From assembly GCF_041080675.1 (NCBI RefSeq), contig NZ_CP163520.1, positions 8,213,501 to 8,277,500 of the forward strand: a DNA stretch of 64,000 nucleotides. Direction: 5' to 3'. The translations under genes and the position numbers were made by a program. Below, piece by piece: positions 1 to 25,092 of the stretch (the first letter of the stretch is position 1; each line of letters opens with the position of its first letter). The DNA comes from Streptomyces sp. cg36 (lineage in GTDB: Bacteria; Actinomycetota; Actinomycetes; Streptomycetales; Streptomycetaceae). The notes under the pieces were generated by a model. The model was not told the DNA's origin and searched no databases. It saw only the letters and a program-made list of their open reading frames with translations.

Positions 1-2459
1 TGGCCGGCGCCGGGATCTGCGAGATGATGCTGGCCGCCGCCGCCACGATCTTCGAGACCGACCGGGTGCAACTGCGGGACCTGCGGCTTGAGCGGCCCCT
101 GGTGCTGGACCCCGAGCCTTTGGTGTCCGTGGTCGCCGTCCGCGACGGGGACGGCGCGCGGGTGGAGGTCCTCTCCCGCGCGACGGGAGCGGACGCACAC
201 CAGGACCATGTCCGGCACGGCCACGCGACCGTGGCGCCGCTGCACGAAGATCCCGGTGAGCCGGACGTGAAGCAGTGGGTGCCCGCAGCGGACTGGACCG
301 ACATCGCCCCCAGCGACCTTTATGCGTATTTCCGTGAACGGCACGGCGTCACGCACGGTCCGGCCTTCACCGGCCTGGAACGCATCCAGCTCGAACCCAC
401 CGGCGCGCGGGCGGTGGCGACGCTCCGGCTGACCGATGAAGCCCGGGTGTCCTCCTGGATGATGCGGCTGCACCCGGCCCTGCTGGACGAGCTGGCTCAG
501 ACGGGGGCGGCGGTGTGGCGGGATCGCCACGTGCTGGCCCCCGGCCCCGTGGTGTTCGCCGGCATCGACCGGCTGACCGTGTCCGGGCCCGCCGCGCACG
601 CCCGCCGCGCCCACGTCCAGCTCGATGCCGCCGACCACACGTCGACCTCCGTGTCCGGCCTGCTGAGCCTGGCCGACGGACACGTGGTGGCCCAGGTCGA
701 GGGGCTGCGCATCGTCAACGCCACCCCACCCGAGCAACGCTTCGCCTCCCGGCTGGCCCACCTGGCCTGGGTACCGGCCGAGACTCCCCGGCCCTCCACC
801 GCCGCCGCCGCCCTCACGGACCAGGGGAGCTGGGTGGTGGTGGCCGAAACCACCGACCCGTGGGCCGAGGCCCTGGCCGGAGCCCTGCGCGGCGCTGGCG
901 CCGAGGCCCACGTACACAAGATCGCGCTGCACGCTGATCCCGCCCCCCACATCGAGGACCTCCTCCACCACGGCCGATGCGCCGGGATCGTGCTGGCGCT
1001 GGGCAACGGCGACGGCAACGACCCGTGCGAGGCGGCTCGCTCCCGGGTCGGCCGGGCCTGCCGGATCGCCGGACTGCTGGCCACTCGGCCGCACCCAGCC
1101 CGGCTCTGGGTGGCCGCCCGCACCAACGGTGCGTCCCTGACCGCAGCCGGGATGCGGGGCGTGCTGCGCACCGCGACCTACGAATGCCCGCAGCTGGCCC
1201 CCAGCATGGTCGAAGCCGAGGCCGACACCCCTCTGGATCACCTGGCCGCCGAGATCCTGCGACCAGGACCCCCTGTGGAGGTCGCCTGGCGGGGCGGCCG
1301 TCGCCACATCGCCCGCCTGCGCTTCACCGCCCCCGACAGCCCAACCCCCGCTCCGCCGAAACCAGTCGCGCGGCCCGACGGCGCCTACCTGATCACCGGC
1401 GGGCTCGGCGGGATCGGACTGGTCACCGCAGCCTGGCTGGCCGGCCACGGAGCCCACCGCCTCGTCCTGGTGGGCCGCTCCGCGCCCTCGGCACAGGCTC
1501 AGCAGACCCTGGAGGCGCTACGCGAGCAGGGCACGCAGATCACCGTCCTGCAAGGCGACATCGGCGAGCCCGGTGCCGCGCAGGCCGCGGTGCTGGCCGC
1601 CGAACAGGAAGGGGCGGTCCTGCGCGGAGTGTTCCACTGTGCCGGCGTCGTACAGGACGCCACCCTGGCCACCCTCGCCGCAGGCGACCTGCACCAGCTG
1701 GCACAGGTGTGGCGCGGCAAGGCGCACGGGGCGTGGGCCCTGCACGAGGCCACTCTCGACCGGGACCTGGACTGGTGGGTCCTGTACTCGTCCATGGCGG
1801 CCCTGGTCGGCTCGCCCGGCCAGGCCGCCCACGCCTCGGCCAACGCCTGGCTGGATGAACTGGCCGCGTGGCGTGCCGCCCAGGGCCTGCCCGCCACCTC
1901 CATCCAGTGGGGTGGATGGAGCGAGGTCGGCGAAGGCCAGCACATGGCCGAACGCGGCTACGCGATGATCTCCCCCAACGACGGCCTGGACGCCCTGGAC
2001 CGCATCCTGGCCGCCGGCTACACCACCATCGCCTACGCCCCGCCGGACCTGGCACGCTGGACCAAGCCCTATCCAGGGGCGGCCGAGACGGCTCTGTTCA
2101 CCGACATCCTAGGCGTGGGCCACGGCCACGACGACAGCGAGCGACTGCTCGCCGACCTGCGTGCCGCCGACAGTCACACGCAGCGGCGGGACATCTTGCA
2201 CGAGCACATCATCGAGGTGGTACGCGACATCCTCGGTACCACCAGCCGCGTCACCCCGGTCACGTCCATGGTGGCACTGGGCATGGACTCACTGGGGGCG
2301 GTGCAACTCCAACAGCGCCTGCAACACGCCCTCAAGATCTCCTTCGAGACCGGTGTCGTGTGGCTCAAGCCCACCGCGGCCGGCATCACCGACTGGATCC
2401 TGCACAAGATGGGCTACCAGCCCGACTCGGCCACTTCACCACCTGGGACACCCGGATGA
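1..2459 (+). CDS. Type I polyketide synthase, C-terminal part (DH-KR-ACP), 5' truncated by the window edge
   Basis: The reading frame is open to the left edge (first full codon at 3), so the KS, AT and the N-terminal DH His motif lie upstream. Visible order, counted from the edge: rest of a DH domain (about residues 1-240, with THGPAF and HPALLDELAQ, whose Asp is the second DH catalytic residue); the KR structural half (about 250-440); the KR catalytic half with GGLGGIG at about 465; and an ACP with GMDSLGAVQL, whose Ser (about residue 763) would carry phosphopantetheine. The KR has Ser in YSSMA, but the usual catalytic Tyr of the YxxxN motif is His (GQAAHASANA, residue about 610). No thioesterase follows the ACP, so release is by another protein. 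The stop overlaps the next gene's ATG. The acyl product cannot be deduced from this fragment. Confidence 0.93.
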   Translation, partial: AGAGICEMMLAAAATIFETDRVQLRDLRLERPLVLDPEPLVSVVAVRDGDGARVEVLSRATGADAHQDHVRHGHATVAPLHEDPGEPDVKQWVPAADWTDIAPSDLYAYFRERHGVTHGPAFTGLERIQLEPTGARAVATLRLTDEARVSSWMMRLHPALLDELAQTGAAVWRDRHVLAPGPVVFAGIDRLTVSGPAAHARRAHVQLDAADHTSTSVSGLLSLADGHVVAQVEGLRIVNATPPEQRFASRLAHLAWVPAETPRPSTAAAALTDQGSWVVVAETTDPWAEALAGALRGAGAEAHVHKIALHADPAPHIEDLLHHGRCAGIVLALGNGDGNDPCEAARSRVGRACRIAGLLATRPHPARLWVAARTNGASLTAAGMRGVLRTATYECPQLAPSMVEAEADTPLDHLAAEILRPGPPVEVAWRGGRRHIARLRFTAPDSPTPAPPKPVARPDGAYLITGGLGGIGLVTAAWLAGHGAHRLVLVGRSAPSAQAQQTLEALREQGTQITVLQGDIGEPGAAQAAVLAAEQEGAVLRGVFHCAGVVQDATLATLAAGDLHQLAQVWRGKAHGAWALHEATLDRDLDWWVLYSSMAALVGSPGQAAHASANAWLDELAAWRAAQGLPATSIQWGGWSEVGEGQHMAERGYAMISPNDGLDALDRILAAGYTTIAYAPPDLARWTKPYPGAAETALFTDILGVGHGHDDSERLLADLRAADSHTQRRDILHEHIIEVVRDILGTTSRVTPVTSMVALGMDSLGAVQLQQRLQHALKISFETGVVWLKPTAAGITDWILHKMGYQPDSATSPPGTPG

Positions 2460-3508
2460 AGGCGGACCCGGTCAATCACCACGGCCCCGGAACCGGTCGA
2501 GGGACGGGAGGTGTCACGGGGTCAGCAACAACTGACCTGGCAGGAGGGACACCGGGCCCCATCCCGTCGCGCAGACATCGCTGGCGCACGTCCCTCATGC
2601 TCTGGGCAGCCGGTGGAGCCGTCGCCCTGGGCCTGCAAGCGGCGGTCTTCGCCCGGTGGATCGCGGCGGGTGACATCCACGCCGCCCCGCGCGACTTCGC
2701 CGTGCCCACGTACCGAGCAGCGTTGATATGGACCGAACAGGCCCTGGGGCTGCTGCTCGTCGCGGCGTGCATCGCCGTAGCGATCGTCCAGAGTCGACGA
2801 GAGCGGAATGTGTCGTGGACCGCGGCCATCGTGATCGGCTCGGCGTTCACCTTCTGGCTCGGATTCTTGAGCTGCTGGGACCGCCAGTACGCCGCCGGGA
2901 ACCGGTACGCGCTGAACGTCACCAGCTGGGCGCCGTACGTTCCCGGCTGGCACGGACCACACCCCGAACGGCAGATCGACACGCTGTTCGCGGCACAGAC
3001 CTTCATGTACATAGGGATCATCTACTGGGCCTGGGTCCAGCAGCTCCTGTTGCGGTACGTCTTCCGTTGCACGCCCCACTCACGGATGCCGCGGATCGTC
3101 CTCTCCCTGCTGCTGTCCGGCCTGCTGGCCGATGTGCTCATCGAAGGGGTGCTCCTCAGCGGCATGGGCGGCTACGCCTATCTGACGGCCAACCGGTCAT
3201 GGGCGGTCTTCGGCGGCCACTGGTACCAACTCCCTCTGGTCAACGTGGCCATCGGCGGAATCACCCTGGCCTGCATGCCCACCGCCATGCAGTGGTCAGC
3301 CGAACGCCGGGGCAGGACAGCGCACATCTTCCGTGGCGAAGAACGCTTCACCGACCGCACCCGCCCTTGGCTGCGGGCCTTGGCGGGGATCGGCTTCATG
3401 AACGTCGTCGTAGCCGCGTACTGGATCCTCACCCCGCTCCTGGTCACCGCTTCCGGACCGGATCCCCTCCCGCCTGACACTCCGGCCTGGCTCTGGAGCC
3501 TGCATTGA
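2456..3508 (+). CDS. AveC-family spirocyclase-like membrane protein
   Basis: The product is about 350 residues. An N-terminal arm of about 40 residues is followed by roughly seven hydrophobic segments (for example SLMLWAAGGAVALGLQAAVF, ALGLLLVAACIAVAIV and VLSLLLSGLLADVLIEGVLL). The block WDRQYAAGNRYALNVTSW, followed by PYVPGWHGPHPERQIDTLF, resembles the AveC family, whose founding member acts in avermectin spiroketal formation. The ATG at 2456 overlaps the PKS stop (ATGA), and its own stop overlaps the next TTG, so the three genes should be translationally coupled. Context therefore supports a role in modifying the polyketide. Many AveC relatives have no proven reaction, so cyclisation versus dehydration is open. 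Confidence 0.75.
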   Translation: MKADPVNHHGPGTGRGTGGVTGSATTDLAGGTPGPIPSRRHRWRTSLMLWAAGGAVALGLQAAVFARWIAAGDIHAAPRDFAVPTYRAALIWTEQALGLLLVAACIAVAIVQSRRERNVSWTAAIVIGSAFTFWLGFLSCWDRQYAAGNRYALNVTSWAPYVPGWHGPHPERQIDTLFAAQTFMYIGIIYWAWVQQLLLRYVFRCTPHSRMPRIVLSLLLSGLLADVLIEGVLLSGMGGYAYLTANRSWAVFGGHWYQLPLVNVAIGGITLACMPTAMQWSAERRGRTAHIFRGEERFTDRTRPWLRALAGIGFMNVVVAAYWILTPLLVTASGPDPLPPDTPAWLWSLH

Positions 3509-4923
3509 CCCCGCACACCCCGCCGCAGCGTGCCCGACCCTTGGGGCGTGCACACGCGGTGGTCATCGGCGCCGGCATCGCGGGTCTGCTGAACGCGAGG
3601 GTGCTCGCCGACCACTTCGAGCGGGTCACCGTCATCGAGAAGGACACACTGCCCGATCACCCCGCGCACCGGTGGGGCACCCCCCAGGACGCGCATCTGC
3701 ACGGGCTGCTCCTACGCGGACGGCAAGTCGTCGAACAGCTTGTGCCGGGCTTCACCGACGACCTCATCGCGCACGGCGCACCCACCATCGACCTCGCCGC
3801 CGACCTCGCGATCCGCAGCCCGTTCGGCTGGGGTCGGCGCGCCCGTTCCGACCTGCGCACGGTCAGCGCCAGCCGCATCCTGGTCGAACGGGTCATCCGC
3901 CGCAGGGTCGCAACCCGGTCCACCATCACCATCCGGGACCGGACCCAGGTGGTCGCACTGGCCGGAACGAGCACCCGTATCGCGGCCGTCCGCGTCCGCC
4001 CCGGGTTCACGGAGAACGCCATTGAGGAGTTGCCGGTCGACCTGGTCGTCGACGCCACCGGACGCGGCTCGCGATCCAGTCACTGGCTCCGCGACCTGGG
4101 GTGCCCGCCGCCTCCCGAGCAGACCCTCAACTCGCGTGTGGGCTACGCCAGCCGCCTGTACGAGATTCCCGCCCAGCACTGCGCCACCTGGAAACTCTGC
4201 CTCCTGCAGACCACCCCCACGGGCCCGTTGCGCGGCGCGGCACTGATGCCCATCGAGCACAACCGCTGGGTGGTCACCCTCATCGGCATCGGCCCCCACA
4301 GGCCCACTCGCCGGGAAGGAGACTTCCTCCCGTTCGCCCGCAGCCTGCCCAGCCCGATCGTCGCCGAGGCCCTCCACAACGCCGAACCCCTGACCGACAT
4401 CGCGATCAGCACCGCCACCAGCAACCACCGCCGACACCCCGACCGGGTGGCACAGCGGCCGGACAACCTCCTCGTCACGGGCGACGCTCTCTGCTCGTTC
4501 AACCCGGTCTACGCCCAAGGCATGACCGCCGCCGCGACCTGCGCCGCCCTGCTCGGCGACTGCCTCGACCGCCACGACGCCGACGGCAGCCGCTCAAGGA
4601 TCAGCAGCCACTACTACCGCCGTGTCCGCCCGCTCCTCGCCAACTGCTGGACCCTGGCGACCACGGCCGACTGCGGATACCCGGACGGGCCGCCGCCCAC
4701 CCCACGGCAGCGGATCACCCGGCGCTACCTGGACCGCGTCCTGCTCGCCGGTACCCACGACTTCCCCGTCCAGCTGGCGTTCCTGCGCGTACTCAACATG
4801 CTCCGCCCGCCCGCGTCCCTGCTGGAACCGGCCGTCGTCGCACGGGTGCTGCGCAACCACCACCCGACGGCCGACGCCATCCCCAGCCATCCGCCGGGGG
4901 ACCGGTCGGGTCCCCGACACTGA
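3505..4923 (+). CDS. FAD-dependent monooxygenase/epoxidase-like oxidoreductase
   Basis: This is a 472-residue flavoprotein of the aromatic-hydroxylase/squalene-epoxidase-like fold. The Rossmann FAD site VVIGAGIAGLLNARVLADHF starts near residue 17, and the second FAD contact GDALCSFNPVYAQGM is near residue 330. The TTG start at 3505 overlaps the stop of the AveC-like gene (ATTGA). No signal peptide or membrane anchor is evident, so it is probably a cytoplasmic enzyme handling a lipophilic polyketide. A plausible role is epoxidation or hydroxylation of the chain before or after cyclisation; this is inferred from coupling to the PKS and AveC-like genes. It is the last gene of this tightly overlapped trio. 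Confidence 0.82.
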   Translation: MTPHTPPQRARPLGRAHAVVIGAGIAGLLNARVLADHFERVTVIEKDTLPDHPAHRWGTPQDAHLHGLLLRGRQVVEQLVPGFTDDLIAHGAPTIDLAADLAIRSPFGWGRRARSDLRTVSASRILVERVIRRRVATRSTITIRDRTQVVALAGTSTRIAAVRVRPGFTENAIEELPVDLVVDATGRGSRSSHWLRDLGCPPPPEQTLNSRVGYASRLYEIPAQHCATWKLCLLQTTPTGPLRGAALMPIEHNRWVVTLIGIGPHRPTRREGDFLPFARSLPSPIVAEALHNAEPLTDIAISTATSNHRRHPDRVAQRPDNLLVTGDALCSFNPVYAQGMTAAATCAALLGDCLDRHDADGSRSRISSHYYRRVRPLLANCWTLATTADCGYPDGPPPTPRQRITRRYLDRVLLAGTHDFPVQLAFLRVLNMLRPPASLLEPAVVARVLRNHHPTADAIPSHPPGDRSGPRH

Positions 4924-5096
4924 CGTGACCGCGGTCGCCAACCCCACCCGTCACGACCAATGTGGGCCCAATTTCCCTTTTTGCCGCCCGTCGCCTTACT
5001 GCCAGGCACTTTGCTGAGGGCCGTCGAAGTGGAGAGCGCGCGCCGGAGCGGCCACGCTTGGTGATCGAGCCGATCCCGCCCTCTAGGAGCCCGCCC

Positions 5097-5372
5097 ATGG
5101 TGCACAGCACGGCCACCCAGCACTCGTTCACCCCGCGTGAGCGCGAGATCCTTGCCCAACTGCCGGACGGCACCACCTACCAGGCCATCGCGCACAGCCT
5201 GGGGCTCAGTCGGCACACGGTCGACACCTACATCCGGCGGCTGCGCGGCAAGACCGGTACGGCCAACCGCACCGAGCTGGCCGTCCTGGCCGCCCAGCTC
5301 GGCTTCTCGTCCTACCGCCCCAACCCGCGCGTCGCGGTCACCGCCGACCCGAGCCCCGCGCCCAGGTGGTAG
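5097..5372 (+). CDS. Small LuxR/GerE-type DNA-binding regulator
   Basis: The product is only 91 residues and is nearly all one LuxR C-terminal helix-turn-helix. FTPREREILAQLPDG leads into the helices around YQAIAHSLGLSRHTVDTYIR and LRGKTGTANRTEL. There is no receiver, PAS or ATPase domain, so any signal must come from dosage, partners or transcription. The ATG at 5097 begins just before the domain; an upstream in-frame ATG at 4962 would add a low-complexity Arg-rich leader and is less likely. It lies between the PKS trio and the sulfotransferase and is a candidate pathway-specific activator. Confidence 0.8.
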   Translation: MVHSTATQHSFTPREREILAQLPDGTTYQAIAHSLGLSRHTVDTYIRRLRGKTGTANRTELAVLAAQLGFSSYRPNPRVAVTADPSPAPRW

Positions 5373-5534
5373 CAGGCCGCCCTCTGCCCGGCTCCTCCCT
5401 CCTCGGCTCATCGCGGCGTACCAGCCAGCGCCGCCCTGTCCTCCCGCCTTCCCGCTGAACCGCCGCACCCGCAGAGCCAACCCACCACACAGACCCCAAC
5501 CGGATACGTGTCCCCTGTGACAGGAGCAGAGAAA

Positions 5535-6341
5535 ATGCGATTCATCTTCGTCGGCGGCTCAGCCCGCTCTGGCACCTCACTGGTCCAGAAGTTGCTGGTC
5601 AGCCACTCGGCGATTGCCGGAGGCCCGGAGTTCGACCACACGGCGGCGATCTTCCGGATGTATCGGGACATGGCCCAGCCCTGGCGGCTGGAGCGGCAGT
5701 CCTTCTACTACGACGCCGCTGGGCTGGCCCAGTCGTTCAAGCAGTTCTACGAGGGCTTCTTCACCGATGTGGCGGCTGACAAGACCAGCGCCCGCTTCAT
5801 ATCGGAGAAGACGCCCAGCAACCTGGCCGTCGCCGAGACCCTGCTTCGCCTGTGGCCCGACGCGGTCTTCGTGAACGTCGTCCGGGACGGACGCGACGTC
5901 GTGCTCTCCCACCGGGACGTGAATCGGCGCTATCGGGAGCGCGGGGAGCGCAACCCCGAGCGGGACCACCTGCTCAACGTCTCCCGCTACTGGAACGCCA
6001 GCGCCGAGCAGTACTTCGCCCTGAGCACCCGCCCCGAACTTCGCGACCGGGTCCACCTGGTGGAGTTCGAGAAGCTGGTCTCCGACCCGGAGCCCGAACT
6101 GGCCAAGCTGTTCGGCTTCCTCGACCTCCCCATCGAGGACCTCCAGCGCAGTCCGGAAGCGATCACTGAGCAGCAGACGGGCGTGGTGCTGGAGGGGGCC
6201 TACTTCACGAAGGAGCTCTACCGCCAGCCGTACAACCCCGGCAAGACCCTGCGCTGGCGCAAGGAGATGAAGCCCGTCGAACGGACGCTGTCCACCGTGC
6301 TGATGCGCAACAACCTCCAGCGTTTCGGCTATCCCGTGTGA
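5535..6341 (+). CDS. PAPS-dependent sulfotransferase (Sulfotransfer_3 type)
   Basis: The product is about 268 residues. The 5'-phosphosulfate-binding loop GGSARSGTSLVQKLL lies at the N-terminus, and the 3'-phosphate-binding region VFVNVVRDGRDVVLSH is near residue 115. EKTPSNLAVAETLLRLWPD and NPGKTLRWRKEM also fit this bacterial/TPST-like sulfotransferase group. The ATG at 5535 has AGGAG about 9 nt upstream; an in-frame GTG at 5508 is a less likely start. It would transfer sulfuryl from PAPS to a hydroxyl, and dedicated PAPS synthesis genes occur 3 kb downstream. Likely substrates are the PKS product or an intermediate. Sulfation could be a final decoration or, as in CurM-type chemistry, a leaving group for elimination; the sequence does not decide. 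Confidence 0.88.
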   Translation: MRFIFVGGSARSGTSLVQKLLVSHSAIAGGPEFDHTAAIFRMYRDMAQPWRLERQSFYYDAAGLAQSFKQFYEGFFTDVAADKTSARFISEKTPSNLAVAETLLRLWPDAVFVNVVRDGRDVVLSHRDVNRRYRERGERNPERDHLLNVSRYWNASAEQYFALSTRPELRDRVHLVEFEKLVSDPEPELAKLFGFLDLPIEDLQRSPEAITEQQTGVVLEGAYFTKELYRQPYNPGKTLRWRKEMKPVERTLSTVLMRNNLQRFGYPV

Positions 6342-6364
6342 CCCTCCGCGCGACAGTTGGCCCC

Positions 6365-6394
6365 GGGCCCTGAGCGCCCGTCCGCTCAGGGCCC
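6365..6394. terminator. Bidirectional terminator hairpin between convergent genes
   Basis: A perfect 12-bp inverted repeat, GGGCCCTGAGCG and CGCTCAGGGCCC, is separated by a 6-nt loop. It sits 23 nt after the sulfotransferase stop and 8 nt before the P450 stop on the other strand. The position between convergent genes fits a shared terminator. Confidence 0.8.
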
Positions 6395-6402
6395 GTCCAT
6401 GG

Positions 6403-7620
6403 CTATGCCCTCAACGGCACGGACCGGTAGGCGGCCAGCCCGAAGACCTCGTCGCGCACCACCGCCGTCCGGTCGAGTCGCTCCGGGACCCCGGCCGCGC
6501 GCAGCTCGGCCACAGCGGCCTGGAGGTGCATGCGCGCCAACGGTGCCCCGAGGCAGTAGTGCCGTCCCCGCCCGAAGGCCAGGTGGGGGCGCGGCCGGTG
6601 ACCGGCGCCCCCAGCCCCCGTCACGGGACAGCCGGTGGTGCCTGCCTCCGCCATGTCCTCACGCCCGGCCGAGGCCAGCAGCAGGACCACCCGCTGGCCC
6701 TTGATGATCTGGTGGCCCTTGTAGTCGAAGGAAGCCTTCGCCTCGCGCGGTGCGAACTGGAACGGTGGCTCGGCCCGCAACGCGGCCTCGACCACCGCCG
6801 CGTCATCCGTCGGCACGCCCCCTTCTCCTGCGGTGCGCGAGCTCTGGACGGACATGCCCAGGGCAGCGGTGCACGTGGCCGTCGCGGTCGGCTCGATGCC
6901 GCCGGTGACCAGTTGGGCGACCATCGCCACCACGTCTGCCGGCTCGATCCGGGGATCCTCCGTCGCCCGGGCCAACTGGACGGCCATCGGCGTGGTCGCC
7001 CGGGGCAGCAGTTCGTCGCGCACGAACGAGGTGAGCCCCGTGACGGCCGGCAGGGCCACACGCGCCACCTCGGCATCCAGTCCGGCGTGCCGCAAGTACT
7101 CGATCAATAGGTCGGACCACGCCTCAAGTTGGCGGCCCTCCTGCTCCGCGTGCACCCCCAGCAGCCGACTGACGGTCCATCGGGCGGCCGGGCGGGCGAA
7201 GTCGTCCAGCAGATCGGCCGGCCCGGCCAGCCCCTCCTGGACGTGGCGGCGGACCGCCGCCCGGATCTCCGGCTCCAGGGGCTGGACCGCTGACCGGGTG
7301 AGCACCGACTGGAGCCGCCTGCGCAGCAGGGCCTGGGAAGGGCGGTCGGAGAACACCGGCCAGCGCGCCAGGTGGTCTTCGACCGGCGCGATCACGGCAC
7401 GGTCCTGCTCCGGCAGTGTGTGGATCACATCGGGGTAGTCGTGCGCGCCGAGGCGCGCATCGAGCAGCAGCTCCGCCACATCGGCGTAGCGACTGATGTA
7501 CCAGGAGGAGGTCGCCGCGTCCCAGTGCACCGGCGAGTGCTCCCGCAACAACTGGTAGAGCGGGTACGGGTCACGCCCGTTCTCCGGGGAGACGAGCGGC
7601 GGGATGGGACGGGCGCTCAT
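6403..7620 (-). CDS. Cytochrome P450 monooxygenase
   Basis: This is a 405-residue soluble bacterial P450. The heme-binding loop is FGRGRHYCLGAPLAR with Cys at about residue 356, the ExxR motif is in EAALRAEP, and the I-helix oxygen-activation motif is VTGGIEPTATA, matching the (A/G)Gx(D/E)xT pattern. Redox partners are not encoded nearby. The ATG overlaps the stop of a 59-residue ORF (ATGA), so the two may be co-translated. It converges on the sulfotransferase across a shared terminator. A role in hydroxylating the polyketide, possibly creating the hydroxyl that is sulfated, is inference from position. Confidence 0.9.
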   Translation of the reverse strand: MSARPIPPLVSPENGRDPYPLYQLLREHSPVHWDAATSSWYISRYADVAELLLDARLGAHDYPDVIHTLPEQDRAVIAPVEDHLARWPVFSDRPSQALLRRRLQSVLTRSAVQPLEPEIRAAVRRHVQEGLAGPADLLDDFARPAARWTVSRLLGVHAEQEGRQLEAWSDLLIEYLRHAGLDAEVARVALPAVTGLTSFVRDELLPRATTPMAVQLARATEDPRIEPADVVAMVAQLVTGGIEPTATATCTAALGMSVQSSRTAGEGGVPTDDAAVVEAALRAEPPFQFAPREAKASFDYKGHQIIKGQRVVLLLASAGREDMAEAGTTGCPVTGAGGAGHRPRPHLAFGRGRHYCLGAPLARMHLQAAVAELRAAGVPERLDRTAVVRDEVFGLAAYRSVPLRA

Positions 7621-7796
7621 ATCGCCCCCGCGGACTCGTACGCCAGGTTCTCCGTGGCTTGGCGGCCCGTCCAGCAGAACATCGTGTACATGGAATCGCA
7701 GAGATCGGCGATCTGCACACTCATCCGTTGGGGCGCCGGGTGCGGGCGGACGGATCGGCGGAGTTCGTTTACCGTGAAGGCAAAAAGATCTGTCAT
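7617..7796 (-). CDS. Small ORF coupled to the P450, unknown function
   Basis: The product is 59 residues, starting MTDLFAFTVNELRRSVRPHP and ending NLAYESAGAI, with no recognised family. Its stop overlaps the P450 start (ATGA), the usual arrangement for translational coupling. No clear ribosome-binding site precedes the ATG. The sequence just upstream on this strand is unusually AT-rich, with TATATA and TAATGT elements, so the mRNA could be leaderless or the ORF could simply be part of the P450 leader. Coding is supported mainly by the junction. Confidence 0.45.
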   Translation of the reverse strand: MTDLFAFTVNELRRSVRPHPAPQRMSVQIADLCDSMYTMFCWTGRQATENLAYESAGAI

Positions 7797-7929
7797 GGTC
7801 GTGACATTAGAGGCTGTTGGAACATTTCTGGTATATATCCCGGTCCATTCCGCAGGGGGTAATGGGGAAAGCGGGCGCGGGAGAGGGGATTCGCACTCCA
7901 TGCCTTTCGCCACTGCACCGGACAACGCC

Positions 7930-7962
7930 CTCGCCCGAAGAGTTCTTCTCCTTGGGCGAGGC
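7930..7962. terminator. Nested hairpin downstream of the methyltransferase
   Basis: An 8-bp perfect inverted repeat, CCTCGCCC and GGGCGAGG, encloses a second perfect repeat, GAAGA-GT-TCTTC. It lies about 65 nt beyond the methyltransferase stop on the minus strand and upstream of the P450 unit, so it probably ends methyltransferase transcription. Confidence 0.5.
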
Positions 7963-8026
7963 AGCGCAACGGGCGGCCCGAGTCTGAGCCCCCCGCGGGG
8001 GCATCCGACATTCGTGAACAGTGGGT

Positions 8027-8791
8027 TCAGCGGCGCAGGCAGATGACGTATCCGGGGCCTGCCGGTTCGCGTTCCAGGACCTCCAGCGTCCACGCCGACT
8101 CGGCGACAGCGGTGGCGATTTCGTCCGGCGTCGCAAACCAGTAGTCGAACCACGGGGTCGCCGTGTCGCCGTCCCGCATCCGGATGCGCAGCTGCCCGCG
8201 GGCCCGCCCGCGGCTGAGGTTCCAGGCGTGGTATTCGGCATGGGCCTCGGCGCCGTAGAGAGGGTCCATGCCCTTGCCGATCAGCCGCGCGCCGGGTCGG
8301 GCCACCGTGGCGAGCGCCGCCAGGATCTCAGGCGCCTGAACGGGTCCGCCCAACAGGCCAAGATTGTTGCCGAACAGGGCGATCGTGTCGAACATCCCAA
8401 GTCCCTCGGGCAGGTTCGGCACCTCGCCCACCACCGTCTCGACACCCCGCTCACGCGAGACGCGCACCGCCTCCGGTGACGGCTCCAAACCCACGACCTG
8501 ACGGCCGAGTTCCACCCACGGAACAGCGTGTCGCCCACCGCCGCTCCCGACGTCCAGGATCCGCCCCGTGGCCTGCTCCCAGCCCCAACGCTCCAGGTCG
8601 GACCAGCGCTCCGGGGCGTCGAAGTACCGCGACGCGTCGTTGGCCTCGATCAGGCCGTCGTCGCGCTCGATGACCTCCACCGCCGACCACGGTGCGGCGC
8701 CGGCGTCCCAGCAGCGGCCCATCACGCGGCCCACCGCGTCGCCGATCCGGGGTTGCCGCATTTCCGGATGCAGGTCCAGGTTCGTATCCAT
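8027..8791 (-). CDS. SAM-dependent methyltransferase (class I)
   Basis: The product is about 254 residues. The SAM-binding motif I, ILDVGSGGGRHAVPW, lies near residue 78, followed by an acidic loop (VVGLEPSP) and motif-IV-like FDTIALFGNNLGLL. Start chosen at ATG 8791 (MDTNLDLHPEM); the frame is open further upstream but without methyltransferase features. The DYWFATPDEIATAV segment and the C-terminal VLEREPAGPGYVICLRR are typical of small-molecule methyltransferases in this fold group. It is transcribed with the P450 strand but separated by a hairpin. An O- or C-methyl tailoring role in the cluster is inference. Confidence 0.85.
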   Translation of the reverse strand: MDTNLDLHPEMRQPRIGDAVGRVMGRCWDAGAAPWSAVEVIERDDGLIEANDASRYFDAPERWSDLERWGWEQATGRILDVGSGGGRHAVPWVELGRQVVGLEPSPEAVRVSRERGVETVVGEVPNLPEGLGMFDTIALFGNNLGLLGGPVQAPEILAALATVARPGARLIGKGMDPLYGAEAHAEYHAWNLSRGRARGQLRIRMRDGDTATPWFDYWFATPDEIATAVAESAWTLEVLEREPAGPGYVICLRR

Positions 8792-9130
8792 GGGGGGCAA
8801 CGATGCCAGACGGCCTCGTCCTCCGGCAGCCACGTGAATCCGGTACCGCGGGCCTGGGACCTTCGGAGAGCGTGCCTGGAAGCACCGGCCGATACGCTCC
8901 CCGGCGGGGCAGCTGTCAAGTCCCGGATCTGTTGGACCACACAATCGGCCCATCCAACTCGGGACTTGAGCTCTTTCGCGTTGGCGGATGATGATGACCA
9001 GGGGAAATTCCACACGCCACGATCAATCCGCCAGTCCACCGTTGGGTTCACGGAACAAGGCCCGCCATTGCGCCGCCACCACACTGATGTCTCACACCCG
9101 TCGGCCACTCCCGAATTACGGATATCCACC
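8792..9130. promoter_or_regulatory. Divergent leader between methyltransferase and cysC with a nested inverted repeat
   Basis: No credible gene is seen in these 339 nt. The main feature is TCAAGTCCCG (8916-8925) and its perfect complement CGGGACTTGA (8960-8969). They enclose a second 5-bp pair, GTTGG (8931-8935) and CCAAC (8954-8958). This could be a transcription-factor site for the divergent genes or a structured 5' leader for the sulfate-activation operon. Neither role can be assigned by eye. Confidence 0.5.
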
Positions 9131-9604
9131 ATGCAACCCCGCCGATCCCGCACCCTCCGTCCATCTCCAGTGGTCACCGCTGGTGCCACTGTGTGGCTGA
9201 CCGGGCTGCCGAGTGCGGGTAAGACGACGATTGCGTGTGAGTTGGCGGGTCGGTTGCGGGGTGGGGGGCGTCGTGTGGAGGTGCTTGATGGGGATGAGGT
9301 GCGTGAGTTTTTGTCGGCGGGGCTGGGGTTCAGCCGTGAGGACCGGTTTGTGAATGTGCAGCGGATCGGTTTTGTGGCGGAGTTGCTGGCTTCGCATGGG
9401 GTGCTGGTGCTGGTGCCGGTGATCGCGCCGTTCGCGGACAGCCGGGAGGCGGTGCGCGCGCGGCATCGGGAGGCGGGGACGGCGTTTGTGGAGGTGCATG
9501 TCGCGACTCCGGTGGAGGTGTGTGCGGTACGTGATGTGAAGGGGTTGTATGCGCGGCAGGCGGCGGGGGAGCTCGCCGGTCTGACGGGGGTGGATGACCC
9601 GTGA
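9131..9604 (+). CDS. cysC: APS kinase (CysC), C-terminus apparently disrupted
   Basis: The kinase phosphorylates adenosine 5'-phosphosulfate to PAPS. A P-loop, WLTGLPSAGKTT, starts near residue 23. EVLDGDEVREFL, GFSREDR and CAVRDVKGLYARQAAG are the family's APS-binding and lid motifs. The frame stops at 9602, just after GLTGVDDP, where CysC proteins normally continue for about 20-40 residues. Sequence typical of that missing tail (EVPLAPDLRIESHLQS, then VGESAAAVHGVLSERGLA) is present immediately downstream in two other frames up to 9705. The catalytic core is complete. The frame breaks are either real mutations or sequence errors. Confidence 0.88.
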   Translation: MQPRRSRTLRPSPVVTAGATVWLTGLPSAGKTTIACELAGRLRGGGRRVEVLDGDEVREFLSAGLGFSREDRFVNVQRIGFVAELLASHGVLVLVPVIAPFADSREAVRARHREAGTAFVEVHVATPVEVCAVRDVKGLYARQAAGELAGLTGVDDP

Positions 9605-9685
9605 GGTGCCCCTGGCGCCGGATCTGCGGATCGAGTCGCATCTGCAGAGTGGGGGAGTCCGCTGCCGCGGTGCATGGCGTGCTGA

Positions 9686-10633
9686 GTGAGAGGGGTCTGG
9701 CATGACGGGGGCTGTGCGGGCGGGGGTGCGGACAGTCCGTACGCGCTCACCCATCTGGATGCGCTGGAGTCGGAGGCGGTGCACATCGTGCGTGAGGTGG
9801 CGGGTGAGTTCGAGCGGCCGGTGATCCTGTTCTCCGGTGGCAAGGACTCGATCGTGATGCTGCATCTGGCGTTGAAGGCGTTCGCGCCGGCCGCGGTGCC
9901 CTTCACGCTGCTGCACGTGGACACCGGCCACAACTTCCCCGAGGTCCTGGCCTACCGCGACCGGGTGGTGGCCGGGCACGGGCTGCGGCTTCATGTCGCC
10001 TCGGTGCAGGACTACATCGACCGGGGCGAGCTGAGGGAGCGGGCGGACGGGACGCGTAATCCGCTGCAGACGCTGCCGCTGACGGACGCGATCCGGGCGC
10101 ACCGCTTCGATGCGGTGTTCGGCGGCGGGCGCCGTGATGAGGAGAAGGCACGGGCGAAGGAGCGGGTGTTCTCGCTGCGGGACGAGTTCTCGCAGTGGGA
10201 TCCGCGCCGCCAGCGCCCCGAGCTGTGGCAGCTCTACAACGGCCGGCACGCGCCGGGCGAGCATGTGCGGGTCTTCCCGCTGTCGAACTGGACCGAGCTG
10301 GATGTGTGGCAGTACATCGCCCGTGAGGGCATCGCGCTGCCGGACATCTACTTCGCGCACGAGCGGGAGGTGTTCGAGCGGGGCGGGATGTGGCTGACGG
10401 CGGGCGGCTGGGGCGGCCCCGCGAGCGGTGAGAGGGTGCAGCGGCGGCGGGTGCGTTACCGCACGGTGGGCGACATGTCGTGCACGGGCGCCGTCGACTC
10501 GGACGCGGCCACCCTGGACGCCGTGATCGCCGAGATCGCCGCCTCCCGCCTGACCGAGCGGGGCGCGACCCGCGCCGACGACAAGATGTCCGAGGCCGCG
10601 ATGGAAGACCGCAAGCGCGAAGGGTACTTCTGA
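9686..10633 (+). CDS. cysD: Sulfate adenylyltransferase subunit 2 (CysD), N-terminus probably frameshifted
   Basis: This is the ATP-sulfurylase catalytic subunit of the PP-loop/PAPS-reductase fold. It has SGGKDSIVMLHLALKAF, the metal/nucleotide motif LLHVDTGHNFPE, FGGGRRDEEKARAKER, and NWTELDVWQYIAREGI. The open frame can only start at GTG 9686, giving an atypical leader. A better start is ATG 9702, which overlaps the frame-restored cysC stop (ATGA) and reads MTGAVRAGVR before losing the frame near 9729-9731, where one base seems missing. From DSPYALTHLDALESE onward the protein is normal. It works with CysN to make APS from ATP and sulfate. Confidence 0.9.
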   Translation: MRGVWHDGGCAGGGADSPYALTHLDALESEAVHIVREVAGEFERPVILFSGGKDSIVMLHLALKAFAPAAVPFTLLHVDTGHNFPEVLAYRDRVVAGHGLRLHVASVQDYIDRGELRERADGTRNPLQTLPLTDAIRAHRFDAVFGGGRRDEEKARAKERVFSLRDEFSQWDPRRQRPELWQLYNGRHAPGEHVRVFPLSNWTELDVWQYIAREGIALPDIYFAHEREVFERGGMWLTAGGWGGPASGERVQRRRVRYRTVGDMSCTGAVDSDAATLDAVIAEIAASRLTERGATRADDKMSEAAMEDRKREGYF

Positions 10634-10634
10634 C

Positions 10635-11936
10635 ATGACCACCACCACGAACCAGCCGCTGGCCGGCCTGGCCGCCACCACCCTGCTGCGCTTCGCCACC
10701 GCCGGCTCCGTCGACGACGGCAAGTCCACCCTGGTGGGCCTACTCCTGCACGACTCGAAGTCGGTCCTGGCCGACCAGCTGGAGGCCGTCGAGGCCGCCT
10801 CCGCCCGCCGCGGCCAGGACACCCCCGACCTCGCCCTGCTCACCGACGGGCTGCGCGCGGAGCGCGAGCAGGGCATCACCATCGATGTCGCCTACCGCTA
10901 CTTCGCCACCACGCGGCGCCGTTTCATCCTGGCCGACACCCCCGGACACGTGCAGTACACCCGCAACATGGTGACCGGCGCCTCCACCGCCGACCTCGCC
11001 CTGGTCCTGGTGGACGCCCGCAACGGGGTGGTCGAGCAGACCCGCCGCCACGCCGCCGTCGCCGCCCTGCTGCGGGTGCCGCACGTGGTCCTGGCGGTCA
11101 ACAAGATGGACCTGGCCGGCTACCAGGAGAAGGTCTTCGCGGCGATCGCCGCCGAGTTCACCGCCTACGCCGCCGGACTGGGCATCCCCGACATCACCGC
11201 CATCCCCCTCTCCGCCCTGGAGGGCGACAACGTGGTCGAGCCCTCCGCCCACATGGACTGGTACGGCGGCCCCACCGTCCTGGAACACCTGGAAACCGTC
11301 CCCGTCAGCCACGACCTCACCACCTGCCACGCCCGCCTGCCCGTCCAGTACGTCATCCGCCCCCAGACCGCCCAGCACCCCGACTACCGCGGCTACGCCG
11401 GGCAGATCGCCGCGGGCACCTTCCGCACCGGCGAGAAGGTCACCGTGCTGCCCTCCGGCCGCACCACCACCATCAAAGCCATCGACCTGCTGGGCGAGCC
11501 GGTGGACGTGGCCTGGACCCCCCAGTCGGTGACCCTCCTGCTGGAGGACGACCTCGACATCTCCCGCGGCGACCTCATCGTGCCCAGCGGCGACGCACCC
11601 GCCACCACCCAGGACGTCGAGGCCACCGTCTGCCACGTCGCCGACCAGCCCCTCACCGTCGGCCACCGCGTCCTGCTCAAACACGGCACCCGCACCGTCA
11701 AAGCCGTCGTCAAGGACATCCCCTCCCGCCTCACCCTCGACGACCTCTCCCTGCACCCCCACCCCGGCCACCTCGCCGCCAACGACATCGGCCGCGTCAA
11801 AATCCGCACCGCCCACCCCCTCCCCCTCGACACCTACGCCGACTCCCGCCGCACCGGCGCCTTCATCCTCATCGACCCCACCGACGGCACCACACTCACC
11901 GCAGGCATGATCGGCGAGCCGAACTCTCCCTTCTGA
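10635..11936 (+). CDS. cysN: Sulfate adenylyltransferase subunit 1 (CysN), GTPase
   Basis: This is a 433-residue translation-factor-like GTPase that drives ATP sulfurylase. The P-loop GSVDDGKSTLVGLLL begins near residue 22. Switch II is DTPGHVQYTRNMVTGAST and the guanine-specificity motif is NKMDLAGYQEK. The beta-barrel domains follow (VQYVIRPQTAQHPDYRGYAG, GEKVTVLPSGRTT). It starts 1 nt after the cysD stop. Length is normal for CysN without a fused APS kinase, matching the separate cysC upstream. Clustering with the sulfotransferase implies a dedicated PAPS supply; a shared role in cysteine synthesis is possible but no PAPS reductase is present here. Confidence 0.95.
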   Translation: MTTTTNQPLAGLAATTLLRFATAGSVDDGKSTLVGLLLHDSKSVLADQLEAVEAASARRGQDTPDLALLTDGLRAEREQGITIDVAYRYFATTRRRFILADTPGHVQYTRNMVTGASTADLALVLVDARNGVVEQTRRHAAVAALLRVPHVVLAVNKMDLAGYQEKVFAAIAAEFTAYAAGLGIPDITAIPLSALEGDNVVEPSAHMDWYGGPTVLEHLETVPVSHDLTTCHARLPVQYVIRPQTAQHPDYRGYAGQIAAGTFRTGEKVTVLPSGRTTTIKAIDLLGEPVDVAWTPQSVTLLLEDDLDISRGDLIVPSGDAPATTQDVEATVCHVADQPLTVGHRVLLKHGTRTVKAVVKDIPSRLTLDDLSLHPHPGHLAANDIGRVKIRTAHPLPLDTYADSRRTGAFILIDPTDGTTLTAGMIGEPNSPF

Positions 11937-11937
11937 G

Positions 11938-13311
11938 GTGAACGAACCGATGTCCCAACCCCCTCGCCGCATCGCCGTAATCGGCGCCGGAGCCGCGGGC
12001 ACTCTGGTCTCGATGCAGCTGCTTCGCAGGGCTGCCGCACTCCAGGCCGACCTGGAGGTGCAGCTGATCGACCCGGCCGCCACCACCGGGCGGGGTGCGG
12101 CCTACGCCACGGACGCCCCGCACCACCTCCTCAACGTGCCCGCCGGTCGAATGAGCGCCTACCACGATGCGCCGGACCACTTCGTCGGGTGGCTGGCACG
12201 GCGTGCGCCTGGAGCCCATGGCGGTGGCGACCACGTCCCCCGGGCGCTGTACGGGGAGTACCTCGCCGATGTCCTCTCCACCACAGCAGCCCGTCCTGGG
12301 GCGGGGCGGTTGCGACGGGTCCACGAGCGGGTTGTGAGCGTGCGCGAGCACGGGGGTGGCATGACTGTCGCCGTCGGTTCCGGGAAAGCCCTGCGGGCGG
12401 ACGCGGCGGTCCTTGCCCTCGGCAATTTTCCGCCCGGCGAGGCATGGGTCCCATCCGCCTTGCACGGGTCTCCCCGGTATCTGCCCGACCCCTGGGCCCC
12501 AGGCGCTCTCGCCAGGCTGCCGCGCCACGGGGACGTCCTCCTCGTCGGCACCGGCCTGACCATGGTCGACGTGGCGCTCACCGTCAGCCGCGCAGGGCGT
12601 ACCGCCCTGGCGATCTCCCGGCGCGGCCTCCTGCCCCAGCCGCACGCCGAGTCCGCCCTTCCCACGATCCCTGCCCCGACCATCGACCCGAGCGCGGGCT
12701 TGCACCACGTCCGCCGCGCGCTGCTGCGCCACGTCTCGGCCTGCCGTCGTGCGTATGGCAACTGGCGGGTGGGGATCGACAGTCTGCGCCCGGTCACCGC
12801 CGAGCTCTGGCAGCAGCTCACCGTTGCCGACCGCACCCAGTTCCTCCGCCACGACCAATGCCTGTGGAACGCCCACCGGCACCGCATCCCGCCGGCCAGT
12901 GCCCGGGCCCTGCGGGAAGGGATCAGCGCGGGCCGGATCCAGGTCGCGGCGGGCGAGGTCGCCGACGCGGTACCGGGGGAGGACGGCGTCTCGGTCCGCC
13001 TGCGCGACGGCCGCACGCTGCGTGTCGCCGCTGTCGTCAACTGCACCGGCCCCGAGGCGGACGTCCGCCGCGTGAAAGACCCGCTGGTCACCGACCTCCT
13101 CGCCACTGGGCTGGCAGCGCCCGACCCCACCGGCCTCGGCGGCTTCCACACCACCTCATCTGGCCGCCTCCGTGGCAGCGACGAGTCCATGCAGGCCCCG
13201 CTCTGGGCCCTCGGCCCCCTGCTGCGCGGCACTCACCTCGAATCCACCGCCATCCCCGAAATCCGCACCCAGGCGCATGCCCTGGCCACCAGCATGCTCG
13301 GGAGTGCGTGA
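11938..13311 (+). CDS. FAD/NAD(P)-binding oxidoreductase-like protein
   Basis: This is a 457-residue protein with an N-terminal dinucleotide site, RIAVIGAGAAGTLVSMQLLRR. Characteristic blocks of the FAD-NAD(P)-binding (YdhS-like) family follow: GRGAAYATDAPHHLLNVPAG, a second binding region VLLVGTGLTMVDVALTV, and VVNCTGPEADVRR. The GTG at 11938 lies 1 nt after the cysN stop; ATG 11950 is an alternative. Co-transcription with cysCDN suggests a place in sulfate activation or product tailoring, but the reaction is unknown. Similar genes are often found alone in actinomycetes, so the link could be coincidental. A weak hairpin (CCGATC-CGGC-GATCGG) follows the stop at 13316-13331. Confidence 0.75.
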   Translation: MNEPMSQPPRRIAVIGAGAAGTLVSMQLLRRAAALQADLEVQLIDPAATTGRGAAYATDAPHHLLNVPAGRMSAYHDAPDHFVGWLARRAPGAHGGGDHVPRALYGEYLADVLSTTAARPGAGRLRRVHERVVSVREHGGGMTVAVGSGKALRADAAVLALGNFPPGEAWVPSALHGSPRYLPDPWAPGALARLPRHGDVLLVGTGLTMVDVALTVSRAGRTALAISRRGLLPQPHAESALPTIPAPTIDPSAGLHHVRRALLRHVSACRRAYGNWRVGIDSLRPVTAELWQQLTVADRTQFLRHDQCLWNAHRHRIPPASARALREGISAGRIQVAAGEVADAVPGEDGVSVRLRDGRTLRVAAVVNCTGPEADVRRVKDPLVTDLLATGLAAPDPTGLGGFHTTSSGRLRGSDESMQAPLWALGPLLRGTHLESTAIPEIRTQAHALATSMLGSA

Positions 13312-13499: not shown

Positions 13500-14498
13500 T
13501 CAGGAGGGCTGAGGCGGGAGCCAGCCGTGCTGGACGGCGCGGACGCCCGCCTCGAAACGGCTGCGTGCGCCGAGGCGTTCCATCAGTTCGGTCGCGGTGC
13601 GCCGGGCGGTGCGCGGGGAGACGCCGAGCCGTTTGGCGATGGCCTCGTCGGTGTGGCCCTGTGCCAGCAGCCGCAGGGTGGTGGACTCCTGCGGGCTGAG
13701 CCCGTTGGGGTCCTGGCGCGCTGCCTGGCCGAGGGGCTGTGCGGTGTCCCAGACGCTCTCGAAGAGCGCGCACAGCGCGGTGAGCGTGCCCTGTCCGGTC
13801 AGGACGACGGCTCCGGCGGAGGTGTCGTCGCTGTTGACCGGGATGACGGCGGTGGACCGGTCCGTGATGATCATCCGGGTGGGCAGTGCCGGAACGGTGC
13901 GGACGAGCCCGCCGCGCTGGGCGAGCCAGTCGGCGTACTCGACGGTGGGCTGGTCGTTGCGGACACTGCTGAGGTAGACGGTGCGCATCCGCACCCCGCG
14001 CCGGAGGAGCTCCTCGTCGAGGGGGCGTGATGCCTGCATCTGAGCCTCGGGCTGGGCGCCTCCGGGAGCGAAGGACATGACGTCGGCGGTGACGTCGCGG
14101 GTGAGGCGGGCGAGCCGGTCGCGGATCCGGTCGATGCCGATGAGCTGTTCGACGCCAGGGCTGGCGGCGGTGGGACGCAGGTCGGCGTACTCGGCGATGA
14201 GCTGGGCCGCCACGGCCCGGGACGCTTCGAGACGGTGCTGCTGCGCGGCCAGTTCGGCCTGCTGACGGGCCATCAGGATCTCCATGCCGAGGTCGGGCGA
14301 GACCGCCCGCAGGCCGCCCTCGTGGTCGGCCGAGGGCCGCACCAGGGCGAGTTCGCTCAGGACGTCCAGGGCTGCGCATACCTCGTGCTCGGGCAGACCC
14401 GCTCTGGCGACGATGTCGGCCACCCCGCCCGCCGGATCGGCGAGCATGGCGCGGTAGACGGATTCAGCTGCCGCGTCGAGTCCCAGTTCCGTCAGCAT
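13500..14498 (-). CDS. TrmB/LuxR-type transcriptional regulator
   Basis: The product is about 332 residues. The N-terminus (LTELGLDAAAESVYRAMLAD, then a winged-helix region) resembles TrmB-like sugar-sensing regulators. A middle domain follows (DVMSFAPGGAQPEAQMQASR, MRTVYLSSVR, TRMIITDRSTAVIPV). The C-terminus is a LuxR HTH (LSPQESTTLRLLAQGHTDEAI, AKRLGVSPRTARRTATELME). Start chosen at ATG 14498 (MLTELG); the open frame extends 16 codons further without domain sequence. This architecture is frequent in Streptomyces with unknown ligands. It is divergent from the small gene at 14676 and convergent with the FAD/NAD(P)-binding gene. Confidence 0.85.
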   Translation of the reverse strand: MLTELGLDAAAESVYRAMLADPAGGVADIVARAGLPEHEVCAALDVLSELALVRPSADHEGGLRAVSPDLGMEILMARQQAELAAQQHRLEASRAVAAQLIAEYADLRPTAASPGVEQLIGIDRIRDRLARLTRDVTADVMSFAPGGAQPEAQMQASRPLDEELLRRGVRMRTVYLSSVRNDQPTVEYADWLAQRGGLVRTVPALPTRMIITDRSTAVIPVNSDDTSAGAVVLTGQGTLTALCALFESVWDTAQPLGQAARQDPNGLSPQESTTLRLLAQGHTDEAIAKRLGVSPRTARRTATELMERLGARSRFEAGVRAVQHGWLPPQPS

Positions 14499-14600
14499 CG
14501 AGCAACCCCCCAGAGCCTGTGCCGTGACCCCCACTCGGGTCCACAAAGATCATGCCACGCCACGCGTGACTCAGGCGGCGCGGGCGGCAGTTCAGGGGTG

Positions 14601-15331: not shown

Positions 15332-15596
15332 CCGCCGGGCCCAGAGCGCCCGTTACGTCTTGCGGCCTCCCGCCGCACGGCCTGTGAGCGCCGCGCCAGC
15401 TGCTCCTGCAGGGCAGCTGTAGCAGTCGCCCTCCCCGCACCCCCCCCCGGGCCCTCACCCTCAATACCCGGTGCCGTGCCGTGCCGCCCGGCCAGGCCGC
15501 CTCATTCGTCGGCGCCCGCGTCGGTGCAGAACCGGGCAACTGCCGCCCGGCGACACCGCTTCCTGTCTCTCCTCCTCGCCCAGTGAAGGTTCCGCC

Positions 15597-16799: not shown

Positions 16800-17021
16800 C
16801 AGCGGGCCCACCCGCTCACGTCCTTCGTCGCACCCAGCAGCGCACCCGGCAGCGCCGGCCCGACGCGCCTTGCGTCACCACCTGCTTCACGACCTCCGGC
16901 AGCGACGGCCACCACCGCGGGCGTACACCGCGGTCGCGTACTGCCACGCACCTTTGCGCACTACCGACTTCCCTCATTCCAGACGCGGTTCACCGCGCCC
17001 TTTTCCACAGGAGAATCCACC

Positions 17022-18371: not shown

Positions 18372-18482
18372 TTTCCGGCGACACCGCACCCGCTCCACCT
18401 TCGGGCAGCCGCCGCACCACCGGTGCGGCAGCTGCCCCGCACCACGTCCACGCACCATCTACCAGGAAGGGCCAGCACCGCC

Positions 18483-24153: not shown

Positions 24154-24206
24154 GTGCAACCGTCAGGTTGCACTCAACGCCATGACATGCAACCCTTGAG
24201 TTGCAT
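24154..24206. promoter_or_regulatory. Two tandem ArsR-type operator-like dyads
   Basis: GTGCAACC-GTCA-GGTTGCAC (24154-24173) is a perfect 8-bp inverted repeat. A second, related dyad, ATGCAA-N8-TTGCAT, follows at 24187-24206. Both share the TGCAA/TTGCA half-site and lie just before the AHSA1-ArsR operon, so autoregulation by the ArsR protein is likely. Confidence 0.7.
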
Positions 24207-24236
24207 CTCGATGGTGGTGATGAAAGGAGTCCCCTG

Positions 24237-24683
24237 ATGAGCGAGGACCGTATCGAACGCGAGACCCTGATCGAAGCACCCCTGGAGCGGGTCTGGTCCC
24301 TGGTGGCTGAGCCCGGTTTCTGGGTGGCCGACAAGGCGAGCCTGCCCGGCACGGTGGCCAGGGAGGGCGAGACCGTGGTGGCGAAGAACCCGGAGTACGG
24401 CGACTTCCCGGTGCGCGTGGAGAAGGTCGAACCGCCGACCTATCTGGCCTACCGCTGGGCCAGCGCGTTCCCCGGAGAAGAACTGCGAGAGGACAACAGC
24501 ACTCTCGTGGAGTTCACGCTGACGCCGGAAGACGGCAGGACGCGGCTGCGCGTGGTCGAGAGCGGGTTCTCGGCGCTGGCCGGATCCGAGGAGCTGCGCG
24601 GCAGGGCCGTCCAGGACAACACCGGCGGCTGGCAGCAGGAGCTCGACGCACTCAAGACGCGCGCCGAGCAGCCCGCCGCGTGA
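24237..24683 (+). CDS. SRPBCC/AHSA1-family protein
   Basis: The product is 148 residues with the START-like beta-grip pattern: RIERETLIEAPLERVWSLVA at the N-terminus, VEKVEPPTYLAYRW in the middle, and LRVVESGFSAL and NTGGWQQELDAL near the end. These proteins bind hydrophobic ligands, and no catalytic residues are defined. AAAGGAG lies 6-12 nt before the ATG. The stop overlaps the GTG of the ArsR gene, so the two are coupled. AHSA1-ArsR pairs are common in actinomycetes. Confidence 0.88.
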   Translation: MSEDRIERETLIEAPLERVWSLVAEPGFWVADKASLPGTVAREGETVVAKNPEYGDFPVRVEKVEPPTYLAYRWASAFPGEELREDNSTLVEFTLTPEDGRTRLRVVESGFSALAGSEELRGRAVQDNTGGWQQELDALKTRAEQPAA

Positions 24684-25072: not shown

Positions 25073-25092
25073 CCCCGTAGAGGAGCATGATC

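Follow-up and report, generated by a model that had tools for sequence, protein, structure and literature searches.

A Streptomyces polyketide locus with an AveC-like protein, a MonCI-like epoxidase, a sulfotransferase and PAPS genes nearly identical to the housekeeping copy

Gene content of the locus

We analysed a 64,000 nt stretch of Streptomyces sp. cg36 (contig NZ_CP163520.1, positions 8,213,501 to 8,277,500; hereafter the window), which opens inside a type I polyketide synthase (PKS) gene and continues through genes for an AveC-like membrane protein, a MonCI/Lsd18-type flavin epoxidase, a sulfotransferase, and the cysC-cysD-cysN (cysCDN) enzymes that make 3′-phosphoadenosine-5′-phosphosulfate (PAPS) (Table 1). 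The gene set proposed by the initial annotation (PKS, AveC-like protein, FAD monooxygenase, P450, methyltransferase, sulfotransferase and cysCDN) was recovered by hidden Markov model (HMM) searches, which place cysC, cysD, cysN and a sulfotransferase in one polyketide cluster. All three genes of the cysCDN set, which had been called complete, are in place, but cysC is frameshifted as read. The reported lack of a PAPS reductase also held: with the strain's CysH as query, tblastn over the window plus the 40 kb preceding it returned only a weak cross-match to cysD (28%) beyond chance-level rows (E 1 or worse). To call it the edge of a polyketide cluster understates a self-contained triad of epoxidase, AveC-like protein and single-module PKS. 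We infer a small biosynthetic cluster that starts ~4.3 kb before the window and extends ~14.5 kb into it, with the second LuxR-type regulator gene as its probable right edge.

Table 1. Features of the locus, in window positions, with the evidence for each assignment
Feature	Position	Strand	Evidence and remarks
Type I PKS, 3′ part (DH-KR-ACP) of a single-module gene	1..2459	+	HMM (frame 3-2459); KS and AT encoded upstream; 1789 aa overall
AveC-like membrane protein	2456..3508	+	PF17198 E 9.4e-20; ATG overlaps PKS stop; hydrophobic segments
MonCI/Lsd18-type flavin epoxidase (FAD monooxygenase, FMO)	3505..4923	+	PDB sequence search; TTG start overlaps AveC-like stop
Small LuxR-type regulator	4962..5372	+	GerE E 1.5e-13
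PAPS-dependent type sulfotransferase, 268 aa	5535..6341	+	Sulfotransfer_3 PF13469 E 9.6e-30
Cytochrome P450	6403..7620	-	PF00067 E 5.2e-8; matches P450s of solved structure
Methyltransferase open reading frame (ORF)	8027..9013	-	Methyltransf_25 E 3.3e-9
cysC, adenosine 5′-phosphosulfate (APS) kinase, frameshift before 3′ end	9131..9604	+	APS_kinase E 1.9e-49; alignment to housekeeping copy
Tract matching housekeeping cysCDN (L007:9844-12594) at 99.35%	9172..11917	.	Nucleotide alignment
cysD, ATP sulfurylase subunit 2	9686..10633 (ORF as read; start behind 1-base gap)	+	TIGR02039 E 1.5e-136, above cut-off
cysN, ATP sulfurylase subunit 1, short secondary-type tail	10635..11936	+	TIGR02034 E 1.2e-160, above cut-off
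FAD/NAD(P)-binding protein directly 3′ of cysN	11938..13311	+	PF13454 E 3.8e-42
LuxR-type regulator	13500..14546	-	GerE E 2.5e-9

The sulfotransferase frame opens at 5508, and database entry P0001 starts the protein at 5535. The true start of the methyltransferase may lie nearer 8791, and the FAD/NAD(P)-binding gene is probably cotranscribed with cysN. A discrete acyltransferase gene precedes the PKS at L006:15683-16807, L006 being the upstream stretch.

A triad of PKS, epoxidase and AveC-like protein

The PKS is one open frame with a ketosynthase (KS), acyltransferase (AT), dehydratase (DH), ketoreductase (KR) and acyl carrier protein (ACP) module; it starts at L006:17090, 2,911 nt before the window, and ends in the ACP, with no thioesterase (TE) or sulfotransferase (ST) domain in a Pfam scan. 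The PKS/AveC-like and AveC-like/FMO genes overlap at both junctions. Among solved structures the flavoenzyme matches MonCI (E 7.7e-74) and Lsd18/LasC (E 2.6e-70), which places it with the epoxidases expected of a polyether pathway, and the AveC-like protein carries the PF17198 signature expected of a spiroketal macrolide pathway. A modular type I PKS, as in a monensin-type polyether pathway or, with a thioesterase, in an avermectin/milbemycin macrolide pathway, was not found, the enzyme having one module.

Polyether ionophore pathways combine modular PKSs with MonB-type epoxide hydrolases, and avermectin and milbemycin are assembled by a modular macrolide PKS. The window shares its flavin epoxidase family with MonCI of monensin and Lsd18 of lasalocid; unlike the polyether pathways, it pairs an AveC-like protein with a PKS of one module. 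With AveC of avermectin/milbemycin it shares the AveC-like family and residues P163, G164, W165 and G254, which do not vary among 32 aligned sequences, a Streptomyces milbemycinicus locus among them, but here the AveC-like protein is paired with a single-module PKS and an epoxidase. MonCI is presented as the proposed triepoxide-forming enzyme in the relevant passage of PMC10560226.

Using a query alignment of 8 proteins, we collected 62 distinct AveC-like loci in named genomes and looked for partner genes in flanks of up to 10 kb (tblastn, E 1e-6, hand counts; several contigs stop inside the flank). A MonCI-like match was found near 21 of the 62, a KS of at least 60% identity near 16, and both near 15; the triad thus recurs in actinobacteria, these 15 loci coming from genera such as Streptomyces, Nocardia, Actinomadura, Nonomuraea, Streptosporangium and Spongiactinospora. 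Within Streptomyces, AveC-like proteins (E 1e-15) occur in 12 of 392 genomes, the source strain counted. The same genome carries a second PKS-FMO-AveC triad ~152 kb downstream (G000:C1:8368334-8369263 and L025:10329-14383, with the PKS beyond). The frame of that second PKS is broken in the assembly and by eye appears to include an enoyl reductase stretch. In Nonomuraea turkmeniaca (L042:3613-5499) an AveC-like gene adjoins a discrete acyltransferase gene, whose product is 63% identical to the acyltransferase encoded upstream of the window PKS.

A structure model of the AveC-like protein built from the 32 sequences (mean predicted local distance difference test score, pLDDT, 89.6) had no PDB match at E 0.001 or better in Foldseek, and its top VIA-align Z of 4.8 among 395 chains gives no evidence of kinship. 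The label "spirocyclase", used in the initial annotation, is a family name only. An epoxidase is encoded next door, which makes epoxide opening no less probable a role for the AveC-like protein than spiroketal formation.

PAPS genes and the housekeeping copy

A housekeeping cysH-cysC-cysD-cysN locus lies at C1:1.80 Mb, separate from the window set, so the possibility that the window genes are the strain's sole sulfate-assimilation locus falls away. The tract aligned to that housekeeping set is 99.35% identical over 2,753 columns, while in a 295-genome search no CysD from another genome exceeds 92% protein identity among the matches listed. Of the 18 differing columns, a single substitution (9174) marks the left edge of the tract and three (11903-11910) sit at its right edge, running into a diverged cysN tail; the other 14 are interior and form six small clusters, three of them at GCCGGC sites. 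Relative to the housekeeping copy, a 2-base difference gives window cysC its premature stop, and two more small gaps precede the cysD start. These small indels (window 9601-9721) break cysC/cysD, and others (L007 ~10920 and 11793) break housekeeping cysD/cysN. As the housekeeping copy is disrupted at different sites, the breaks in both look like sequencing errors, and the cysC frameshift is probably one. It is very improbable that the near identity itself is an assembly artefact: the copies differ in flanks and ends within one long contig, although frameshifts at different sites in both copies and the clusters on GCCGGC sites are features such an artefact could leave.

The ends of the set are of another kind. 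All eight housekeeping CysN proteins compared end in WDF, whereas six of seven secondary copies from other genomes end no more than a few residues from AGM; the exception, L102, ends in WDF, and a second copy, L133, is likewise of the long kind. The window CysN tail is short, as in most secondary sets, and the near-identical tract therefore lies inside a copy with diverged ends (N-terminus and CysN tail), as a conversion tract would. On sequence comparison, the window PAPS genes are best explained by ectopic gene conversion from the housekeeping to the secondary copy, not by a separate pathway operon inherited vertically, and the two sets are probably kept alike by this process.

The near identity would also fit a recent plain duplication or dosage copy unrelated to the polyketide, in a genome that holds two further sulfotransferase-family loci above the Pfam cut-off. 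We consider this improbable, as the diverged ends resemble most secondary sets and other genomes carry such tracts within clearly older secondary operons. Since the whole window operon is near-identical, conversion is separable from duplication only by these secondary-type ends and the pattern in other genomes.

That pattern starts from frequent second copies of cysD, with at least two matches in 82 of 295 rows among the matches listed (own included; hand count, some being one split gene). We compared 22 genomes: seven from the top of the cysD list (a biased choice), 14 hand-picked from low handle numbers, and the source strain; 15 low-handle genomes had been searched, and G032, whose second copy is truncated where its contig stops, was left out. 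Same-genome copies were closest to each other for cysD in 13 of 22 genomes, for cysC in 3 of 20 and for cysN in 3 of 21 (Fisher p 0.004-0.005, treating one genome's genes as independent). FastTree placed them as sisters in 15/22 for cysD (supports 0.85 to 1), 3/20 for cysC and 3/21 for cysN. In the cysN tree, eight secondary copies from other genomes group as a clade (support 0.999), and these eight plus a ninth do so in the cysC tree; in the cysD tree they lie scattered. This disagreement between gene trees concerns the other genomes; the source genome's three trees agree, so it has no direct bearing there.

In the 12 pairs profiled besides the window's (13 in all), near-identical stretches cover mainly cysD and the region near the cysN start, whereas the contrast genomes G107 and G085 have none across cysD. 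By median identity, each of the 13 homogenised secondary cysD genes is closer to the housekeeping cysD of other genomes than to nine non-homogenised secondary ones (set by the closest-copy criterion, although L128 and L134 among them are tree sisters of their own housekeeping copy). This suggests that conversion runs from housekeeping to secondary copy, general conservation being uncontrolled for. The comparison points to recurrent gene conversion in genomes with two sets, and the window is the most extreme of the 22. Like the other Streptomyces secondary sets it has cysC-cysD-cysN with no cysH match (7/7 loci) and the short CysN tail (6/7), but it matches the housekeeping genes in all three genes, where most others do so in cysD only. 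Sulfotransferase-family genes adjoin the secondary sets of G107 (L102:3-866) and G228 (L106:958-1827), two of the seven proteins checked.

Sulfotransferase and proposed pathway

The sulfotransferase gene begins 162 nt after the LuxR gene that trails the FMO gene, on the same strand, and the cysCDN set follows ~2.8 kb beyond it. The dedicated sulfate supply suggested by the initial annotation holds insofar as the cluster has its own cysCDN, but these genes are a near-identical copy of housekeeping ones. The PAPS-site motifs of the sulfotransferase are kept, RSGT and RDGRDV being invariant across 11 sequences. In a 5.8-billion-protein database, 83 proteins (own included) scored E 1e-20 or better among 1839 candidates scored; the seven nearest other relatives are 67-82% identical, and all named ones are from Streptomyces. 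The close family is present in 2/392 Streptomyces genomes (own and G201), 1/394 of a family draw (own only) and 1/61 of a draw around G201 (G201), these draws overlapping. Within the flanks of up to 10 kb, none of the 62 AveC-like loci has a match to the sulfotransferase, methyltransferase, cysC, cysD or cysN, in keeping with the view that an AveC-like protein beside a sulfotransferase is an unusual pairing.

In G201 the sulfotransferase relative lies near a related P450 (54%) and a related LuxR gene, within an unrelated cluster that has no triad or cysCDN matches in 40 kb, so the sulfotransferase and P450 possibly form a separate module. That G201 locus (L035:2-17242) also holds genes for a seryl-tRNA synthetase, a UDP-GlcNAc 2-epimerase, a GMC oxidoreductase and an AMP-ligase. 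Given this context, we infer from position only that the sulfotransferase acts on the window's polyketide. The locus could instead hold two adjacent pathways, the triad making one compound while the sulfotransferase, P450, LuxR and cysCDN genes serve another. Both the G201 grouping and the absence of sulfotransferase or cysCDN from the 62 AveC-like loci favour such a division, which we nonetheless think unlikely, as the sulfotransferase stands close behind the triad on the same strand and no scaffold-building enzyme is among the genes identified from 5.5 to 14.5 kb.

Sulfate serves as a leaving group in aziridine-forming pathways, and a hydroxyl sulfated here might likewise be eliminated or displaced, as in curacin. 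The CurM sulfotransferase is indeed among the PDB sequence matches, but weakly (E 2e-5), with protein-tyrosine sulfotransferases matching better (E 2e-14), and by Pfam the PKS lacks the CurM-type ST-then-TE arrangement. We consider such a fate quite improbable; the sulfate-activated and eliminated polyketide offered as an option by the initial annotation found no recognised partner enzyme for the elimination step.

An earlier example of a polyketide cluster with PAPS genes and a sulfotransferase is known: the account of the Streptomyces notonesomycin cluster in PMC7081687 includes, in the part that concerns us, a PAPS operon (nbc9-11) and a sulfotransferase (nbc48), whose knock-outs yield only unsulfated notonesomycin B. 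The window resembles that cluster in having cysCDN-type genes and a sulfotransferase, whereas notonesomycin is a large glycosylated 32-membered macrolactone.

We propose a short pathway to an epoxidised, cyclised and sulfated polyketide, with PAPS made on site by genes recently overwritten by the housekeeping copy, and regard the case for it as evenly balanced. The single-module PKS would work iteratively, building the chain on its ACP, and the MonCI-like flavoenzyme, by homology, would epoxidise C=C bonds. Ring closure could then fall to the AveC-like membrane protein, through epoxide opening or through dehydrative cyclisation as in AveC, with the P450 and methyltransferase presumably tailoring the polyketide. 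The sulfotransferase would transfer sulfate from PAPS, supplied by the co-located cysCDN enzymes, to a hydroxyl, giving a stable sulfate ester. Gene content, recurrence of the triad and the conversion pattern are observed; the chemistry is proposed from the family membership of the enzymes.

The window PKS retains the KS Cys, AT Ser and ACP Ser motifs, and the AT motif VASH, which we take to suggest methylmalonyl use. Several observations weigh against the proposed pathway. The catalytic Tyr position of the KR is His in the window PKS and in 2 of 15 readable relatives, Tyr standing in the other 13 (17 loci were entered; L038, with a wrong frame picked, and L025, partial, yielded no usable KR), and the DH motif carries Ala where most relatives have Pro. 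Polyene formation is therefore less certain for the window PKS: likely for the triad family, as judged from these motifs, but uncertain for this member. The assembled cysC carries a frameshift, same-genome cysD copies are not sisters in 7/22 genomes, and the G201 setting of the sulfotransferase relative allows that sulfotransferase and P450 may be a module of their own.

More tentatively, and with somewhat less confidence than the pathway itself, the triad loci may represent an undescribed family of short pathways in which an iterative PKS module, a MonCI-like epoxidase and an AveC-like protein lead to cyclic ethers, the AveC-like protein replacing MonB-type hydrolases and the product being sulfated in this strain, alongside secondary PAPS operons repeatedly overwritten, mainly in cysD. 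Neither a triad cyclic-ether pathway nor overwriting of cysD by housekeeping genes was found in print among open-licence papers. The triad would offer a compact route to epoxide-derived rings and places the AveC-like family in a non-macrolide setting. Judging by the cysCDN comparison, PAPS genes embedded in a pathway may evolve otherwise than as pathway genes, cysD having repeatedly been made uniform with its housekeeping counterpart. In that case gene conversion would keep a "dedicated" precursor supply in step with primary metabolism, cysD would not reveal how old such operons are or where they came from, and noisy assemblies might corrupt such near-identical pairs.

Beyond the cluster, window 15471-20594 holds three successive genes resembling secreted FG-GAP repeat proteins, the first by HMM, with a transglycosylase-like domain, and the other two by their ends only. 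Two genes that look SRPBCC-like by eye (24201-24683 and 25087-25566) have apparent close relatives beside the triad of genome G351 (L031:4311-5687; starts compared by eye).

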